Positions 43,739-51,057 of a stretch of DNA of 64,000 nucleotides are shown here, piece after piece. Location of the stretch: positions 62,001 to 126,000 of the forward strand of contig CADCIX010000002.1 of assembly GCA_902801565.1 (NCBI GenBank), written 5' to 3'. The stretch's first letter is position 1. Every line of letters begins with the position of its first letter. Below the pieces are notes generated by a model. The model did not search any database, was not told the DNA's origin, and was given only the letters and a program-made list of their open reading frames with translations. Origin of the DNA: an uncultured Veillonellaceae bacterium. GTDB taxonomy: Bacteria > Bacillota > Negativicutes > Selenomonadales > Selenomonadaceae. A program made the translations under genes and the position numbers.

Positions 43739-44785
43739 ATGTTGCGGCGTTGCCTGGCATCTGTTTTTGTTCTGCTGACAGTGTTGGCTCTTTTTGATGG
43801 GTGTGTCAAACAGCAGGAGGAATCTCCGATAGCAGGGGGAGAATACGAGAAGGTACGGCTTGTCATGACCGCAAACGGGACGGATATCGGCATTGAGACG
43901 CTGACCGCACGGCGCTTTGCGGAACTGGTGGAGAAGGAGTCCGGCGGGAATGTGCATATCGAGGTCTATCCCAACGATGAATTGACGGGAGGAAATACCA
44001 ACGAGGCAGTCCGATCCCTGACAGAGGGGTATGTCGATCTCGGCGCCTATGTATCGGGAACCATGTCGCTGCTCGACCCGCGGCTGGAGGTTGCGACGAT
44101 TCCCTGGTCCTTTTCCAGTTACCAGGAGGCACGACAGGTGATTGACGACACCGGGGGAGCCTATTACGAGAAGATTCTTGCCGAATACGGCCTGGTGTAT
44201 CTCGGTTCGGCACATAATGCCATGCGCCAGCTGACCAGCAACCGCAATCCTATACGGACTCCCGAGGACCTTCAGGGTATGAGGATCCGTGTGCTGGGTG
44301 GCGAGGTCTATCGGCTCTTCTTTGCGGCGCTTGGGGCGGAGCCGATTCCCTTGGGCTGGAGTGAGCTCAATATCGCCATCCGACAGGGGTTCATCGAAGG
44401 GCAGGAAAACGGTTTTTTCCTCATGAAATCCGGCCACCTCAACGAGATACAGAAGTACATGACGGTCTGGAACTATCTGTACGAGAATTATCTTTTCGTT
44501 GCCAACCGCAAGACCTTTGACCAACTGGAGCCCAAGACACAGGCGCTGCTTCGCGCAAAGATGCGGGAGGCATGTGAGTGGGGACGGGATTATCTGGAAG
44601 CGGAGGAAACGAAGATCCGGGTGCAGTTCGCCGAGGATGGTCTGGAAATCACGGACCTCACGCCCGAGGAACTGGAGGTCTTCAAGGCGCGGGTACGCCC
44701 TCTGCGGGAACAGCTCAAAAAGAAATACGGCGCAGAGGCATGCAAGGCCTTTCGCATTGATATGGATGAGGAGGGTGGCATGTGA
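43739..44785 (+). CDS. TRAP-type dicarboxylate-binding protein (DctP family), orphan
   Basis: 348 residues from ATG 43739, with AAGGAGGG upstream. A short signal (CLASVFVLLTVLALFDGC) suggests a lipoprotein with Cys14 or thereabouts. The DctP core is clear: LTGGNTNEAVRSLTEGYVDLG, IRTPEDLQGMRIRVLGG (with the ligand-binding Arg) and AEPIPLGWSELNIAIRQGFIEGQENG. No TRAP permease (DctQ/DctM) is present. The stop overlaps the start of a diguanylate cyclase, so I infer a ligand-sensing role rather than transport. Confidence 0.9.
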   Translation: MLRRCLASVFVLLTVLALFDGCVKQQEESPIAGGEYEKVRLVMTANGTDIGIETLTARRFAELVEKESGGNVHIEVYPNDELTGGNTNEAVRSLTEGYVDLGAYVSGTMSLLDPRLEVATIPWSFSSYQEARQVIDDTGGAYYEKILAEYGLVYLGSAHNAMRQLTSNRNPIRTPEDLQGMRIRVLGGEVYRLFFAALGAEPIPLGWSELNIAIRQGFIEGQENGFFLMKSGHLNEIQKYMTVWNYLYENYLFVANRKTFDQLEPKTQALLRAKMREACEWGRDYLEAEETKIRVQFAEDGLEITDLTPEELEVFKARVRPLREQLKKKYGAEACKAFRIDMDEEGGM

Positions 44786-47178
44786 AACAGGGAATCTATC
44801 GGTTTTGCCTGTCAGCCTTCTTGTACTGGCTGGTTGCAGCATATGCGGGCCAGGTGTTCGTGCTTCCCCCAAAGATCATCGGACTTGCCACGTTCCTGCC
44901 GCCTGTTCTGGGGCTTATGTGGGGGCCGGTGGCAGCAGTTGGCGTGTACGTGGGAGGATTGCTTGCAGCACCGGAGTTCGATGGGCTTTCTTCTGCAGGG
45001 ATTGGAAGCGGGCTTTCGGTCTTTTGGCGGGGAGCCTGGGTATTTCTCGCAGGGTATCTGCCATATTTCCTCTGGCACAGATGGCCTGCCAGGCAAGGGG
45101 AAACGGCATTTCCCCTTACAACGTATACACTCAGGAAGTTTCTTGTATGCCTGCTCATCACCTTTCTCGTGACATCAGCCTTCCGTACACTGACAGCCTC
45201 CCCTTCAGAACTGGAGGCGCTTGCCGGCTGGCTTAGCTCGGGAAAGACTGCGACGCTTTCGGAGTATATGCTCGCCTGCTTCATCAATGATTTCTTTTTG
45301 GCGGTATTCTTTGGGCTTGCCGGATTTTTCTTCCTTGTCAGCAAGGGCTATGGCTTTTATTGTCCGAAGAAGGAATCTGTGGAACAGGAAGCTTCGCAAA
45401 ACAGCCAGGCCAAGGGCAGGATCTACAAGGCATGGGTCATGGCACTGGGGTTTTATGTCCTGTTCCCGGCGGTTGTCATTTATATGGATGTCTATCAGAT
45501 CTATGGGATGAATTACATGGGGACTTGGCTGCATTTCCTTCTGGAATGCATTGCCATGATGGACATGTATCTTGTCCTGATGCTCTATCTGCTGCTGCGC
45601 TACCGACGTTCCATCATGATGGAGGTCGTGTTTCTGGTGGCGCTGACGGTGTTCCTGCTGGCAGCAGTATTGGGCTGGGGAAGCTCTGCAGCCATGAGCC
45701 ATCTCGTGGAATCCCATGCGGATGATTCCCTGCATGCCATGAGTGTCATCTGCCGCGAACGGCTGAACCGTACCTTTTTCTGTGTGCGGCAGGCAGTGAA
45801 TGGCATGAAGCTTCAGGTGGTCAATGGCATTGAAAGCTATGAGAGGCTGGCGGGGGATGCTGCCTATCGGGAAAACTACCTCAAGGCCATGGAGAAGAGC
45901 TTCAGTGCCATTGCTTATGGGACGGATGGGAGCATTGCCTACTATTTGCGGCTGGCACCGGAAATTGCCGGGACCAAGGGCGGTTTTTCCATGGGGCGTG
46001 AAGATGTTCGTTGGGAAGGGGCGCTGCCGTCTTTCGTGGAACGGGATCCCATCGACCTCGCCCTCTATTCCTCCGATGATGCGAGGAGTGTTGGCTGGTA
46101 CTATATTCCCATCAGGAGCAAATGCGCCACATGGATTGAGCCCTATGTGGATCCCACAGCCAAGTCCTATGTCATCTCCTATGTGGCGCCCATCTTTGTC
46201 GAAGGCAAGACGGTTGGGGTTATCGGCATGGACATCGACTTCAATTTCATCATTCAGGAACTGCGGCGCATGTCCATCTATGACTATGGCTATGTCTACA
46301 TCATGAACCGCAACGGCGTCGTGCTCTACCATCGGGATCGGCCCCAGGGCTCCCTGTTCCAGCCGAACCCGGAATTCCAGGAGATTGAGATCTATCTTGC
46401 CAATGGCATGTGGCTTGGTATTGCGACGCCTTTGAGCAAGGTGCATGACGAGCGCAACCGCATCCTGATGCATCTGGTGGCGGCCATCCTCATCGTTGCG
46501 ATGCTGGTATCCCTGGGAAGCATTGCCCTGGCATCCTATGCCATCCATCCACTGGCAGGAATGACGGAGGCAGCGAAACGCATTGCCTCCGGGGACCTCA
46601 GTGTGGAGATTTCCTATGAGTCCGGCAATGAACTGGGACTTCTGGTGCGGAGCATCCGTGAAATGGCTGCGAAGCTGGAGATCTATGTCTACCGCGACAA
46701 GCTGACGGGCCTTCGAAATACCGCGGCCTATATGAGCAAGGGCGGGGAACTGGATGCCCAGAAGAAAGTGGGTTCCGGCCTTGCCTATGGTGTGGTCATC
46801 TTCGACGTGAATTTCCTGAAGAAGGTCAATGACCAATATGGCCATGAGTCGGGCAATGTGCTTCTCCGCCATGCCTCCCAGGTCATCTGCAAGGTGTTCG
46901 ACCACAGCCCCGTTTACCGCATCGGCGGCGATGAGTTTGCGGCCATCCTGGAGCGTCAGGACTATGAGAACCGGGAGGAACTTCTTCGCATCTTTGATGA
47001 AAAGATTGCGCAGGAGCATTTCGAGGCGGCAGGGGATACCCTTGGCGTATCTGTGGCCCGTGGCCTTGGTGTCTACGAAGAGGGCATGGATTTTTCTGCC
47101 GTGGCAAAGAAAGCCGATGTCGCAATGTACAGCCATAAGACAGCCATTAAGGCAAAATATGGCGAGGATGTGCGGTGA
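44782..47178 (+). CDS. Polytopic membrane diguanylate cyclase (multi-TM, Cache, HAMP, GGDEF)
   Basis: 798 residues from GTG 44782. Roughly eight transmembrane segments fill residues 5-300; this region recalls MASE or S-component modules (FLPPVLGLMWGPVAAVGVYVGG) but I cannot name it. A periplasmic Cache-like domain spans about 305-560 (VGVIGMDIDF near 479), then a TM helix, HAMP (HPLAGMTEAAKRIASGDLSVEI from about 590) and a GGDEF domain: DKLTGLRN near 639, metal Asp675, intact GGDEF at 715-719. No RxxD inhibitory site precedes GGDEF. It would make c-di-GMP in response to an outside signal, perhaps relayed by the overlapping DctP protein. Confidence 0.88.
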   Translation: MKQGIYRFCLSAFLYWLVAAYAGQVFVLPPKIIGLATFLPPVLGLMWGPVAAVGVYVGGLLAAPEFDGLSSAGIGSGLSVFWRGAWVFLAGYLPYFLWHRWPARQGETAFPLTTYTLRKFLVCLLITFLVTSAFRTLTASPSELEALAGWLSSGKTATLSEYMLACFINDFFLAVFFGLAGFFFLVSKGYGFYCPKKESVEQEASQNSQAKGRIYKAWVMALGFYVLFPAVVIYMDVYQIYGMNYMGTWLHFLLECIAMMDMYLVLMLYLLLRYRRSIMMEVVFLVALTVFLLAAVLGWGSSAAMSHLVESHADDSLHAMSVICRERLNRTFFCVRQAVNGMKLQVVNGIESYERLAGDAAYRENYLKAMEKSFSAIAYGTDGSIAYYLRLAPEIAGTKGGFSMGREDVRWEGALPSFVERDPIDLALYSSDDARSVGWYYIPIRSKCATWIEPYVDPTAKSYVISYVAPIFVEGKTVGVIGMDIDFNFIIQELRRMSIYDYGYVYIMNRNGVVLYHRDRPQGSLFQPNPEFQEIEIYLANGMWLGIATPLSKVHDERNRILMHLVAAILIVAMLVSLGSIALASYAIHPLAGMTEAAKRIASGDLSVEISYESGNELGLLVRSIREMAAKLEIYVYRDKLTGLRNTAAYMSKGGELDAQKKVGSGLAYGVVIFDVNFLKKVNDQYGHESGNVLLRHASQVICKVFDHSPVYRIGGDEFAAILERQDYENREELLRIFDEKIAQEHFEAAGDTLGVSVARGLGVYEEGMDFSAVAKKADVAMYSHKTAIKAKYGEDVR

Positions 47179-47188
47179 AATGGTCAAT

Positions 47189-47254
47189 GTTTCAATGCTG
47201 CCGGAAGGCAGCATTGAAACCTATATATTGAAATCTATCTATTGAAACACAAGA
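47189..47254 (+). promoter_or_regulatory. Hairpin and three 14-bp direct repeats before larA
   Basis: 47189-47202 and 47207-47220 form a perfect 14-bp stem (GTTTCAATGCTGCC) with a GGAA loop. ATTGAAA recurs at 47213, 47227 and 47241, exactly 14 bases apart, and the inverse GTTTCAAT begins the hairpin. The hairpin could end the preceding transcript, though no T-run follows; the repeats look like an operator array for larA. Confidence 0.5.
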
Positions 47255-47271
47255 ACAAAGGAGTGGATTGC

Positions 47272-48540
47272 ATGAAACTGAAGATTCCCTATCACAAATC
47301 CCATGTTCCCATTGAAATTCCGGACCACAATTTCCTTGGGGTCCTGGAATCCGATTCCGGAAGCACAAAGATGGAGGGCTCCCAGGAGGAGATTGTCGAG
47401 CGTGCCATGGACAACCCCATCGGCAGCGCAAAGCTGGAAGACCTGGTCAAGGGGAAGAAGCGTATGGTCATCATATCCAGCGACCATACGCGCCCGGTGC
47501 CCAGCAAGGTGACCATGCCGATCCTGCTGCGCCGCATTCGCGAGGCAAATCCCGACATTGATATCACCATTCTCATTGCCACCGGTTTCCATCGTCCGAC
47601 AACCCATGAGGAGCTGGTGCAGAAATATGGGGAAAAGATCGTCAAGGAGGAGCACATCGTCATCCATCGTTCCCAGGAGGACGAGATGGCGGATCTCGGG
47701 ACCTTGCCCTCCGGCGGCAAGCTGCTCATCAACAAGGTCGCTGTGGATACCGACCTGCTCATTGCGGAAGGATTCATTGAGTCCCATTTCTTTGCAGGTT
47801 TTTCCGGCGGACGGAAATCCATCCTGCCCGGCATTGCATCCGCCACAACGGTTATGGCGAACCATTGCAGCGAGTTCATTGCCAGCCCCTATGCGCGTAC
47901 GGGCATTCTGGAGAACAATCCCATCCACAAGGATATGCTCTATGCTGCCGAGCAGGCAAAATTGGCCTTCATCCTGAATGTCGTGATTGACGCGGAGAAA
48001 AAGGTGATTGCGGCTTTTGCGGGAGACAGGGTAAAGGCTCATCTTACCGGCTGCGATTTTGTGATGAAGATGGCAGAGGTCAAGAAGCAGCCCGCCGATA
48101 TTGCCATCACGACCAACGGGGGCTATCCTCTCGACCAGAACATCTACCAGTCCGTCAAGGGCATGACCGCCGCCGAGGCGACCTGCAAGGAGGGCGGCAT
48201 CATCATCATGGTTTCGGCCTGCAATGACGGCCATGGAGGGGAGTCTTTCTACCGGACCCTCAAGGAAGCCGAGTCGCCGCGGGCTCTGCTGGACCGGATT
48301 GCCAAGGTTCCGCGCAACGAGACCATTCCGGACCAATGGGAGATGCAGGTCCTTGCCCGCATCCTTGACAAGTACACGGTGATTCTCGTGACGGATATGT
48401 GCGACCCGCAGATGATACGCGATATGCACATGCAGCATGCCGCAACCTTCGAGGAAGCCTTCCGGCGCGCCATGGAAATCAAGGGGAAAGATGCCTCTGT
48501 GGTTGTCATACCGGATGGCGTTTCCGTGATTGTCCGTTAA
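47272..48540 (+). CDS. larA: Nickel-dependent lactate racemase LarA
   Basis: 422 residues from ATG 47272, after AAAGGAGTGG. The motif SSDHTRPVPSKVTMPILLRRI, the catalytic GFHRPTTHEEL histidines (HRPTTHEE), and ESHFFAGFSGGRKSILPGIAS with the cofactor-linking lysine are characteristic. It interconverts D- and L-lactate or a related 2-hydroxy acid using the nickel-pincer cofactor built by LarB, LarC and LarE. LarB and LarC are encoded 16 kb upstream; larE is not in the window. Confidence 0.94.
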   Translation: MKLKIPYHKSHVPIEIPDHNFLGVLESDSGSTKMEGSQEEIVERAMDNPIGSAKLEDLVKGKKRMVIISSDHTRPVPSKVTMPILLRRIREANPDIDITILIATGFHRPTTHEELVQKYGEKIVKEEHIVIHRSQEDEMADLGTLPSGGKLLINKVAVDTDLLIAEGFIESHFFAGFSGGRKSILPGIASATTVMANHCSEFIASPYARTGILENNPIHKDMLYAAEQAKLAFILNVVIDAEKKVIAAFAGDRVKAHLTGCDFVMKMAEVKKQPADIAITTNGGYPLDQNIYQSVKGMTAAEATCKEGGIIIMVSACNDGHGGESFYRTLKEAESPRALLDRIAKVPRNETIPDQWEMQVLARILDKYTVILVTDMCDPQMIRDMHMQHAATFEEAFRRAMEIKGKDASVVVIPDGVSVIVR

Positions 48541-48581
48541 AGATCCTTTCCTTAAGCAAATAAAGTAAGTATGTCGATATC

Positions 48582-48610
48582 TTGCATTTACCCTCCTTGT
48601 GTGATAGCAT
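48582..48610 (+). promoter_or_regulatory. Promoter of the panS-panC-panD leader
   Basis: TTGCAT at 48582-48587 and TAGCAT at 48605-48610 are 17 bases apart. The transcript would begin about 48617, some 220 bases ahead of the first gene. Confidence 0.58.
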
Positions 48611-48616
48611 AGGGGC

Positions 48617-48838
48617 ATGGCAAAAGATGACATCCCGCCTTCGGTGTGAGTCATACTTTTCAAGGCACTTTTCATGCAATGCAAACTGCTGCTTGGATCT
48701 GGTTGCAGACCGAGACAGGAGAGGGTAACTGCGCTCTTTTTGAAGGATACGTATGCACCTTTCAGGTCTGGCCTGAAAGGTGCATTTTTGCGTCTTTTGC
48801 CAAGGTGTGTTGGAAATCTTTGGTAGGAGGGTTTTGCT
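48617..48838 (+). promoter_or_regulatory. Candidate cis-regulatory leader RNA with terminator, before panS
   Basis: There is no plausible gene in this stretch of about 220 bases. An early hairpin (GATGAC around 48628 with GTCAT around 48650) is followed by a structured middle and then a strong terminator. TGAAGG at 48741-48746 can pair with CCTTTCA at 48758-48764, which overlaps the left terminator arm, giving a possible antiterminator. The layout suggests attenuation or a riboswitch; no known class was recognised by eye. Confidence 0.5.
48753..48790 (+). terminator. Intrinsic terminator inside the panS leader
   Basis: A perfect 14-bp stem (48753-48766 with 48772-48785, ATGCACCTTTCAGG), a 5-nt loop and a T-run lie about 50 bases before panS. 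Confidence 0.85.
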
Positions 48839-49792
48839 GTGAGAAATCTGATCAAGAAACTGGTTGACAACATGGCGCTTTTGGTGATTGCCGTGGCAGT
48901 GCTGGGGGCTGTCCGTCCGGAGACGCTTTCCTGGATCGGCCCTTATGTGTCCTGGATGCTCGGGGTTGTCATGTTCGGAATGGGAATGACGCTTCGAGTG
49001 GAGGACTTCCGCAATGTGCTGCGGCATCCCTGGGAGGTTGGCATCGGAGTGATGGCGCAATTCATCATTATGCCATTGGCGGCACTGGCGCTCATCAGGC
49101 TCTTTGCGCTGCCGCCGGAGCTCGCCATCGGCGTGGTTCTGGTGGGGACCTGCCCGGGCGGCACGGCCTCGAATGTCATTTCCTATCTGGCGAAGGGGGA
49201 TGTGGCCCTGTCGGTCTCGATGACCATGACGACGACACTGCTGGCTCCCCTTGTGACGCCCTTTTTGACCTGGGCCTTGGCCGGTGCCTGGATTGACGTG
49301 TCCTTTACGGCAATGATGATCTCCATTGCGGAAATGGTGCTGGCCCCTGTCCTCTTGGGCCTTCTTGCGCATCATTTCGCGGAGCGCCAGGTGGAGCGAG
49401 TGATGCCCGTCATGCCCCTGGTGTCGGTCATCTGCATCGTCCTGCTGGTGGGCTGCGTCGTGGCGCTTTCCTCCGGCAAGCTCCTTGAGGTTGGGCCGGG
49501 CATGGCCATGGTGGTCATACTGCACAATCTCTTCGGTCTCCTGCTCGGCTACGGTGCCGCGAAGGCAATGCACATGAATCCGCAAAAGTCCCGCACGGTG
49601 GCCATTGAGGTCGGCATGCAGAACTCCGGCATGGCAGCCAGTCTTGCCATCCTGTATTTCAATCCGGCAGCGGCGCTGCCCGGGGCAATCTTCAGCGTAT
49701 GGCACAATATTTCCGGTTCCCTTTTGGCGAATTTTTTCGCTCGCAGGAATGAGAAGGAAACATTGGAATTGACAGAGGCAAAGGCTTCGTGA
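48839..49792 (+). CDS. panS: BASS-family transporter, probable ketopantoate/pantoate importer (PanS-like)
   Basis: 317 residues from GTG 48839, after GTAGGAGGG. About nine or ten hydrophobic helices are visible, with LVGTCPGGTASNVISYLAKGDVALSVSMTMTTTLLAPL and VEVGMQNSGMAASL-like IEVGMQNSGMAASLAIL, the two crossover motifs of bile-acid:sodium-symporter relatives. PanS of Salmonella is a member that imports ketopantoate. Its position directly before panC and panD makes that role the best guess; other anions remain possible. Confidence 0.75.
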   Translation: MRNLIKKLVDNMALLVIAVAVLGAVRPETLSWIGPYVSWMLGVVMFGMGMTLRVEDFRNVLRHPWEVGIGVMAQFIIMPLAALALIRLFALPPELAIGVVLVGTCPGGTASNVISYLAKGDVALSVSMTMTTTLLAPLVTPFLTWALAGAWIDVSFTAMMISIAEMVLAPVLLGLLAHHFAERQVERVMPVMPLVSVICIVLLVGCVVALSSGKLLEVGPGMAMVVILHNLFGLLLGYGAAKAMHMNPQKSRTVAIEVGMQNSGMAASLAILYFNPAAALPGAIFSVWHNISGSLLANFFARRNEKETLELTEAKAS

Positions 49793-49812
49793 GTTTGGAA
49801 GGAGACAGGGAA

Positions 49813-50670
49813 ATGAAAGTATTGCGTACCGTTCAGGAGATTCGTGATTTTGCCGGGGAACAGAAAAAGGCCGGCAAGCGAATTGGTCTGGTGCCGACGA
49901 TGGGAGCCCTGCATGAGGGGCATCTCTCGCTGATGCGGGCAGCAAGGGAAAAATGCGATGTGGTGATTGCATCGGTCTTTGTCAATCCGACGCAGTTCGG
50001 CCCCAATGAGGACTATGATGCCTATCCCCGCCGGTTCGAGGAGGATTGCAGGCTGCTGGAGGGGATTCCCGTGGATGCAGTGTTCCACCCGGAGCCTTCG
50101 GAGATGTATCCGGAAGGCTATTGCACCTATGTGCAGGTGGACGGCGATATCACGAACAAGCTCTGCGGGGCGCAGCGCCCGGGGCATTTCCGCGGGGTGG
50201 CCACTGTGGTCACGAAGCTCATCAATCTCTCCCGTGCAGATGAGGCTTTCTTCGGGCAGAAGGATGCGCAGCAGGTGGTGGTGATCCGCCGTTTCGTGGA
50301 AGACCTGAATCTCAACGTGCATATCAACATGGTTCCCATCGTGCGGGAGGAAAGCGGGCTGGCAAGGAGCTCACGCAACACCTACCTGTCGCCGGAGGAA
50401 AAGGAGGCAGCCTGTGTCCTGTCGCGCAGCCTGCAGAATGCAAAAAAAGCCTTCGAGGGCGGAGAAAGGGATGCGGAAGCGCTCAAGGGACTTGTGGCGA
50501 AGGAAATCCAGGGAGAGCCCCTGGCATCCATTGATTATGTGGAACTCTTTTCCTTTCCTGCCCTGCATCCCATGGAAAAGGTCACGGAGGATGCGCTGCT
50601 GGCAATCGCCGTGAAGATTGGGAAGACCCGGCTGATTGACAATGTGATTCTGGAAGGAGGCCGGGGATAA
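49813..50670 (+). CDS. panC: Pantoate-beta-alanine ligase
   Basis: 285 residues from ATG 49813. VPTMGALHEGHLSLMRAARE (HxGH-type), SVFVNPTQFGPNEDYDAYPR, GATRPGHFRGVATVV-like GAQRPGHFRGVATVVTKL, and FFGQKDAQQVVVIRRFV are diagnostic. It joins pantoate and beta-alanine to pantothenate. It follows the PanS-like transporter by 20 bases and precedes panD by 3. panB is not in the window. Confidence 0.96.
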   Translation: MKVLRTVQEIRDFAGEQKKAGKRIGLVPTMGALHEGHLSLMRAAREKCDVVIASVFVNPTQFGPNEDYDAYPRRFEEDCRLLEGIPVDAVFHPEPSEMYPEGYCTYVQVDGDITNKLCGAQRPGHFRGVATVVTKLINLSRADEAFFGQKDAQQVVVIRRFVEDLNLNVHINMVPIVREESGLARSSRNTYLSPEEKEAACVLSRSLQNAKKAFEGGERDAEALKGLVAKEIQGEPLASIDYVELFSFPALHPMEKVTEDALLAIAVKIGKTRLIDNVILEGGRG

Positions 50671-50673
50671 GCC

Positions 50674-51057
50674 ATGATGTTGAATTTGCTTAAGGGAAAG
50701 ATCCACTGTGCAACGGTCACGGAGGCAAATCTCCAATATATGGGAAGCATCACCATCGATGAGGAACTCATGGAGCAGGCAGGTATCCTGCCGAATGAGC
50801 GGGTGCAGGTGGTGGACAACAACAATGGTGCCCGCCTGGAGACCTACACCATACCGGGCCCCCGCGGTTCCGGCGTTGTCTGCCTGAATGGCGCGGCGGC
50901 CCGCTGTGTCCAGCCGGGGGATGTGGTCATTATCATGGCCTATGCCTTTTTCTCCGAAGAGGAGGCAAGAGGCTACCAGCCTCTGGTCGTCATGGTGGAT
51001 GAGAAGAACAAGGTGCGGGAGGTTCGCCGGGTGGAATACCACGGGCAGACCGCCTGA
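50674..51057 (+). CDS. panD: Aspartate 1-decarboxylase
   Basis: 127 residues. The self-cleavage site Gly-Ser is in [12 protein letters not shown], giving the pyruvoyl group on Ser after processing; [14 protein letters not shown] and [14 protein letters not shown] are standard. It supplies beta-alanine to PanC. The 112 bases that follow hold no gene. Confidence 0.96.

Follow-up and report, generated by a model that had tools for sequence, protein, structure and literature searches.

A DctP-type solute-binding lipoprotein and a membrane-bound, predicted diguanylate cyclase, encoded by overlapping genes in an uncultured member of the Selenomonadaceae, probably work as one sensory unit. The lipoprotein, anchored outside the inner membrane, would bind a carboxylate, perhaps a sugar acid, and, once loaded, would dock on the cyclase at its extracytoplasmic dCache domain; the signal would then pass through the last membrane helix and the HAMP domain to the GGDEF domain, altering c-di-GMP synthesis. 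A module at the N terminus of the cyclase, resembling ECF S-components, would act as a membrane platform or possibly as a second input. By analogy with known systems, we infer the docking, the docking site, the ligand and the direction of regulation.

A DctP gene overlaps the gene of a predicted diguanylate cyclase

The window, by which we mean the whole 64,000-nt stretch of DNA analysed, comes from a Selenomonadaceae genome (G000; 2.7 Mb, 99.8% complete). The pair and its surroundings comprise the following features:

43739-44785, + strand: DctP-type solute-binding lipoprotein, 348 aa (PF03480, TIGR00787, alignment)
44782-44785, + strand: 4-base overlap (GTGA) of the DctP stop and the cyclase start (sequence; recurs in most relatives)
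44782-47178, + strand: membrane protein of 798 aa, predicted diguanylate cyclase (Pfam domains, AlphaFold model)
44782-45366, + strand: 6-helix module, residues 1-195, resembling ECF S-components (QueT/RibU) (model, Foldseek, homologues)
45403-45681, + strand: three further membrane helices, residues 208-300 (AlphaFold model)
45682-46449, + strand: dCache_1 domain, extracytoplasmic, approximately residues 301-556, where DctP is proposed to dock (Pfam, PDB 9HVJ, Foldseek)
46528-46683, + strand: HAMP domain, residues 583-634 (Pfam, E = 3.1e-11)
46684-47166, + strand: GGDEF domain, residues 635-795 (Pfam, E = 8.9e-21)
46924-46938, + strand: GGDEF motif, residues 715-719 (motif counts)
47189-47220, + strand: 14-pair hairpin, probable transcript end, lacking a classic T-run (terminator-like match, RNA fold)

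The DctP gene ends in ATG-TGA and the cyclase starts at a GTG codon at 44782, so that the two share four bases, just as the earlier note had read them. A strong hairpin (-25.9 kcal/mol, z = -6.45) directly follows the cyclase stop codon, and the two genes are therefore probably carried on one transcript; a promoter scan of the locus gave no score above chance. Two PilZ-domain proteins are encoded in the same genome, which makes a c-di-GMP output plausible. Further downstream in the window (47242-51057) lie genes for the lactate racemase LarA, a PanS-like transporter, PanC and PanD. We dropped pantoate and lactate as candidate ligands, because this gene order was not found beside the pair in relatives.

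DctP exceeds the curated cut-offs of both family models (PF03480, E = 2.5e-62, 211.2 bits against 23.4; TIGR00787, 181.3 bits against 175.05). Its lipobox, Gly21-Cys22 (Cys codon at 43802-43804), is invariant across 20 aligned DctP sequences, and mean column identity in the DctP alignment (A2) is 80%. The family binding-site residues R163, R184 and N224 are intact: R184 is invariant in all 40 DctP sequences and N224 in those of type I and the transport homologues. We take R184 and N224, from knowledge of the family, to contact a carboxylate ligand.

The cyclase matches dCache_1 (E = 7.7e-16), HAMP and GGDEF (PF00990). The GGDEF motif is intact in each of the 48 family members whose sequences extend that far, and the RxxD inhibitory site is absent, with F706 and S709 in the window protein and Arg in none of the 48. 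Pfam models and motif counts thus agree with the earlier description of a Cache domain, a HAMP domain and an intact GGDEF domain lacking the inhibitory site, and motif and domain together predict a diguanylate cyclase. The eight or so membrane helices proposed earlier become about ten in the model, nine before the Cache domain and one after it. The full-length model (mean pLDDT 74, pTM 0.50) is too weak for placing the domains relative to each other.

The pair is conserved across changing gene neighbourhoods

A genome scan returned 22 loci in rumen Selenomonadaceae, with cyclase identities of 60-76%. One of these (L019) begins at a contig edge; DctP (74-83% identity) lies directly upstream of the cyclase in 20 of the 21 loci having upstream DNA. 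The exception, L013, is a second cyclase copy lacking DctP; its genome carries the pair as well. The 4-base overlap recurs in most of these relatives. By contrast with the pair itself, the flanks differ: 19 loci compared on the upstream side show 18 contexts, and 19 compared on the downstream side show 16. The gene-neighbour survey proposed in the earlier note thus found DctP-GGDEF pairs kept together while their neighbours change, so that the lack of conservation which would have refuted the note's proposal is not observed, and we conclude that the pair is very probably a sensor. At one relative (L017:1249-3983), a chemoreceptor gene overlapping that of a Peripla_BP_4-like binding protein lies directly upstream of the DctP-cyclase pair.

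Genuine TRAP permeases do not co-vary with the pair

Alternatively, DctP could be a conventional binding protein for transport that works with a permease encoded at another locus, its pairing with the cyclase being incidental. This reading draws on the subfamily itself, which includes proteins of DctPQM transport systems that are 54-55% identical to the window DctP and group among the paired ones, and on the presence of one DctM in the host genome. However, there is neither DctQ nor DctM beside the pair, and the only DctM of the genome is a 638-aa TAXI-type fusion adjoining a TAXI binding protein, the two forming a separate TAXI-TRAP system. The genome thus lacks a cognate DctQ and DctM for what is its only DctP, as the description of DctP as an orphan in the earlier note had implied. 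Among 32 receptor-bearing genomes, about 18 carry the DctP-receptor pair and lack a DctQM-type DctM, as judged by ORF size (DctM of 640-750 aa was counted as TAXI-type, and context was checked for the DctM of the host genome only); five of the genomes (G256, G290, G312, G318 and G348) gave no DctM match, and G258 gave a marginal one. Genomes that do have a real DctPQM system carry a separate DctP beside that permease; in G265, G276, G278, G279 and G283 this is a second DctP of the same subfamily. Genuine permeases elsewhere therefore do not co-vary with the paired DctP; such co-variation, had it been seen, would by the earlier note have refuted its proposal. We consider it extremely unlikely that DctP is there for transport.

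The transport homologues bear on the ligand. Within DctP type I, R163, R184, N224, W207, Y248 and E249 are invariant, and they are identical in the transport homologues. Since these expected pocket residues are shared, the ligand of the sensory DctP is probably of the same class as that of the transport homologues. In several genomes, the neighbours of the DctPQM systems include a split transketolase together with an SDR; at L144 they include RpiB and a D-2-hydroxyacid dehydrogenase. The 'dicarboxylate-like' ligand of the earlier note was taken from the family name and sits poorly with these sugar-phosphate enzymes; judged from gene context, a sugar acid would be a more likely ligand of DctP than a C4 dicarboxylate.

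The binding-protein partner follows the receptor clade

We assembled a family set of 50 non-redundant cyclases that carry the N-terminal module, one of which is without upstream DNA. Of the remaining 49 receptors, 33 are partnered by DctP, nine by a ChvE-like protein (including L063, where the ORF overlap is above the limit of our script) and seven have no adjacent binding protein. The host genome holds both kinds of pair, the DctP pair on contig C2 and a ChvE-like pair on contig C8. The latter (L055:5687-9108) joins a paralogue of the receptor, built from the same domains in the same order, to a sugar-binding lipoprotein resembling ChvE (Peripla_BP_4, E = 4.5e-56; ChvE, E = 1.9e-104). The only BPD_transp_2 permeases in this genome look like LivHM, so the ChvE-like protein also seems to be without a transporter.

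The ChvE-paired receptors form one clade (support 100/100), and partner labels change six times on the receptor tree, compared with 16 times in shuffles. On the tree of the Cache domain, the labels are distributed as they are on the full tree. Partner type therefore follows receptor clade, and the swap to a ChvE-like partner adds independent support for coupling between binding protein and receptor. The coupled pair that the earlier note had suggested is supported from three sides: conservation without neighbours, permeases that do not co-vary and partner swapping.

Between partner types, the largest fall in identity of any part is in the distal dCache region, from 71% within DctP type I to 37% to the ChvE type, compared with 70% and 56% for the GGDEF domain. 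Such a pattern would be expected if the binding protein is read by the Cache domain, although relatedness and a deletion found in the ChvE clade, and not docking, could account for part of the divergence.

Three further arrangements were observed. In the host genome, a Peripla_BP_4 binding-protein gene directly precedes a 4HB chemoreceptor gene on contig C14 (L160:3300-5979), and another stands ahead of genes for a HisKA_3 kinase and a LuxR-type regulator on contig C29 (L161:14120-17040). A solitary DctP gene belonging to the paired subfamily lies between glmU-like and hisG-like genes in G334 (L149:7033-8049), and the type III receptor of that genome (L064) has no adjacent binding protein; the two are possibly a split pair.

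The dCache domain keeps part of a uracil pocket

The nearest PDB entry to the dCache domain, 9HVJ (E = 3.9e-33), is also its top Foldseek match (E = 1.2e-15). The Arg of what we take to be the amino-acid dCache motif, two residues ahead of the Trp, is replaced by Val437, and we rejected that motif for the window protein. 9HVJ is a receptor of Roseburia for uracil and short-chain fatty acids, of the dCache_1UR type (PMC12415202). Although no solved Cache domain is closer by sequence or by fold, it differs from the window protein at its pocket: only four of its eight uracil residues (R116, W160, Y176 and D205) are kept there, and the uracil-specific T145, N178 and N180 are replaced. By these residues, the window protein does not fit the dCache_1UR uracil sensors, and we rejected uracil as its Cache ligand. 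Almost every receptor of the DctP type and of type III retains the same four residues. Those of the ChvE type retain Y176 and D205, a few of them one residue more, and have a deletion over T145 and W160; W160 is lost and R116 mostly so. L019, L039 and the pair L061/L062 deviate from the general pattern. Seven of the eight residues persist in the type IV receptors, which are unpaired; two such cyclases without a binding protein (L067:3559-6147 and L079:4353-6938) are, by their residues, candidate direct uracil sensors.

These residues bring in a second alternative, that a small molecule is sensed by the dCache domain itself, DctP being only a co-expressed accessory which concentrates or buffers the ligand near it without docking. 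Given the four pocket residues kept in the DctP-type receptors, the Cache domain may indeed bind a small molecule itself, and the seven receptors that have no binding-protein gene beside them (L013, those of type IV and most of type III) indicate that the binding protein is dispensable to the architecture; the type IV pair L067/L079, with its almost complete pocket, points the same way. Direct sensing, however, leaves unexplained why partner type follows receptor clade and why the ChvE-type receptors keep a binding protein despite the loss of W160 and, mostly, of R116. The uracil-specific residues T145, N178 and N180, moreover, are missing from the window protein. We regard this explanation as unlikely, and favour docking of loaded DctP on the dCache domain.

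The two modes of sensing could be stages of one history. We tentatively suggest, as a possibility that we rate below even, that a receptor family combining the S-component-like module with a dCache cyclase gave up direct, uracil-type sensing in favour of separate binding proteins, taking on a TRAP protein in some lineages and an ABC sugar protein in another, its own pocket decaying in step, from seven to four and then to two or three of the eight residues.

The N-terminal module resembles ECF S-components

Residues 1-210 were modelled with good scores (pLDDT 90, pTM 0.86). The best Foldseek match of the module is TmRibU (probability 0.99 but E = 0.066; TM 0.42-0.49), with PanT, FolT and transition-metal S-component entries ranking lower. 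Pfam searches of residues 1-300 and 1-210 gave no match, whether to QueT, to a MASE-type domain or to any other, and we dropped a MASE-type or other Pfam domain as a name for this region. The earlier note had been unable to name the module; its domain search indeed came back empty, but a likeness to S-components has emerged, to RibU in fold and, through homologous modules, to QueT. Seven of 35 aligned modules match Pfam QueT, and that of the SpoIIE-linked protein L070 does so at 39.4 bits, above the cut-off of 33.7. We therefore call the window module S-component-like, from its model and from its homologues, which falls short of proof of family membership.

We found the module in 35 of the 350 genomes of the class that were searched. 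It also heads SpoIIE phosphatases (L070:3508-5322, L071:4673-6406, L072:3512-5275 and L074:5670-9591), and at L070 and L072 short genes resembling an anti-sigma kinase and its antagonist adjoin the SpoIIE gene.

A third alternative places the sensor here: loaded DctP would dock on the module, or pass ligand to it, the module being the true sensor or transporter and the dCache domain an independent second input. S-components bind ligands, and the module is present in every receptor of the family. Nevertheless, within DctP type I the module changes faster than any other part (47% identity), it falls less than the Cache domain between partner types, and the SpoIIE proteins that carry it have no binding-protein gene beside them. 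We also know of no ECF S-component that uses a binding protein. Docking on the module is very unlikely in our judgement, and the dCache domain remains our proposed docking site.

Relation to known systems

Control of a membrane receptor by a separate binding protein is a mechanism of a known kind. In Agrobacterium, the sugar-binding protein ChvE signals through the membrane histidine kinase VirA and also serves an ABC transporter; the paralogous pair of our host genome likewise uses a ChvE-like protein, but in a genome whose only BPD_transp_2 permeases are LivHM-like. DctB of Bacillus subtilis is a TRAP-type binding protein. In the DctB-DctS-DctA system, it works as an accessory dicarboxylate co-receptor with the membrane sensor (PMC6978683); unlike in the window pair, the output is that of a histidine kinase and the transporter DctA takes part.

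Closer in output is NspS-MbaA of Vibrio cholerae, in which the genes overlap and the loaded binding protein controls a c-di-GMP enzyme (PMC8967002). The window pair shares with it a binding-protein gene, adjacent to and overlapping that of a membrane c-di-GMP enzyme, without a permease. NspS, however, binds polyamines and MbaA combines GGDEF and EAL domains, whereas the window pair has a TRAP-family protein, a cyclase with no Pfam match to EAL and an additional S-component-like module. In Salmonella, the dCache_1 diguanylate cyclase STM1987 requires the periplasmic binding protein ArtI for arginine sensing (PMC8846402), a dependence like the one that we propose; ArtI binds arginine, and neither a paired gene nor an S-component-like module is described there. 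The logic of NspS-MbaA and ArtI-STM1987 would explain the DctP-cyclase pair. We found no precedent for a TRAP-family binding protein with a diguanylate cyclase in the literature searched, within which the TRAP-family partner, the partner swap inside one receptor family and the S-component-like module are new.

If our model is correct, control of c-di-GMP by binding proteins extends to the TRAP family, in rumen Selenomonadaceae, a group whose nutrient sensing has been little studied. A membrane module common to these receptors and to SpoIIE phosphatases, and unrecognised by any Pfam model in the window protein, is now described. The DctP-paired, ChvE-paired and unpaired receptors make up a natural set in which the shift from a receptor that binds its ligand directly to one that reads a binding protein becomes testable.
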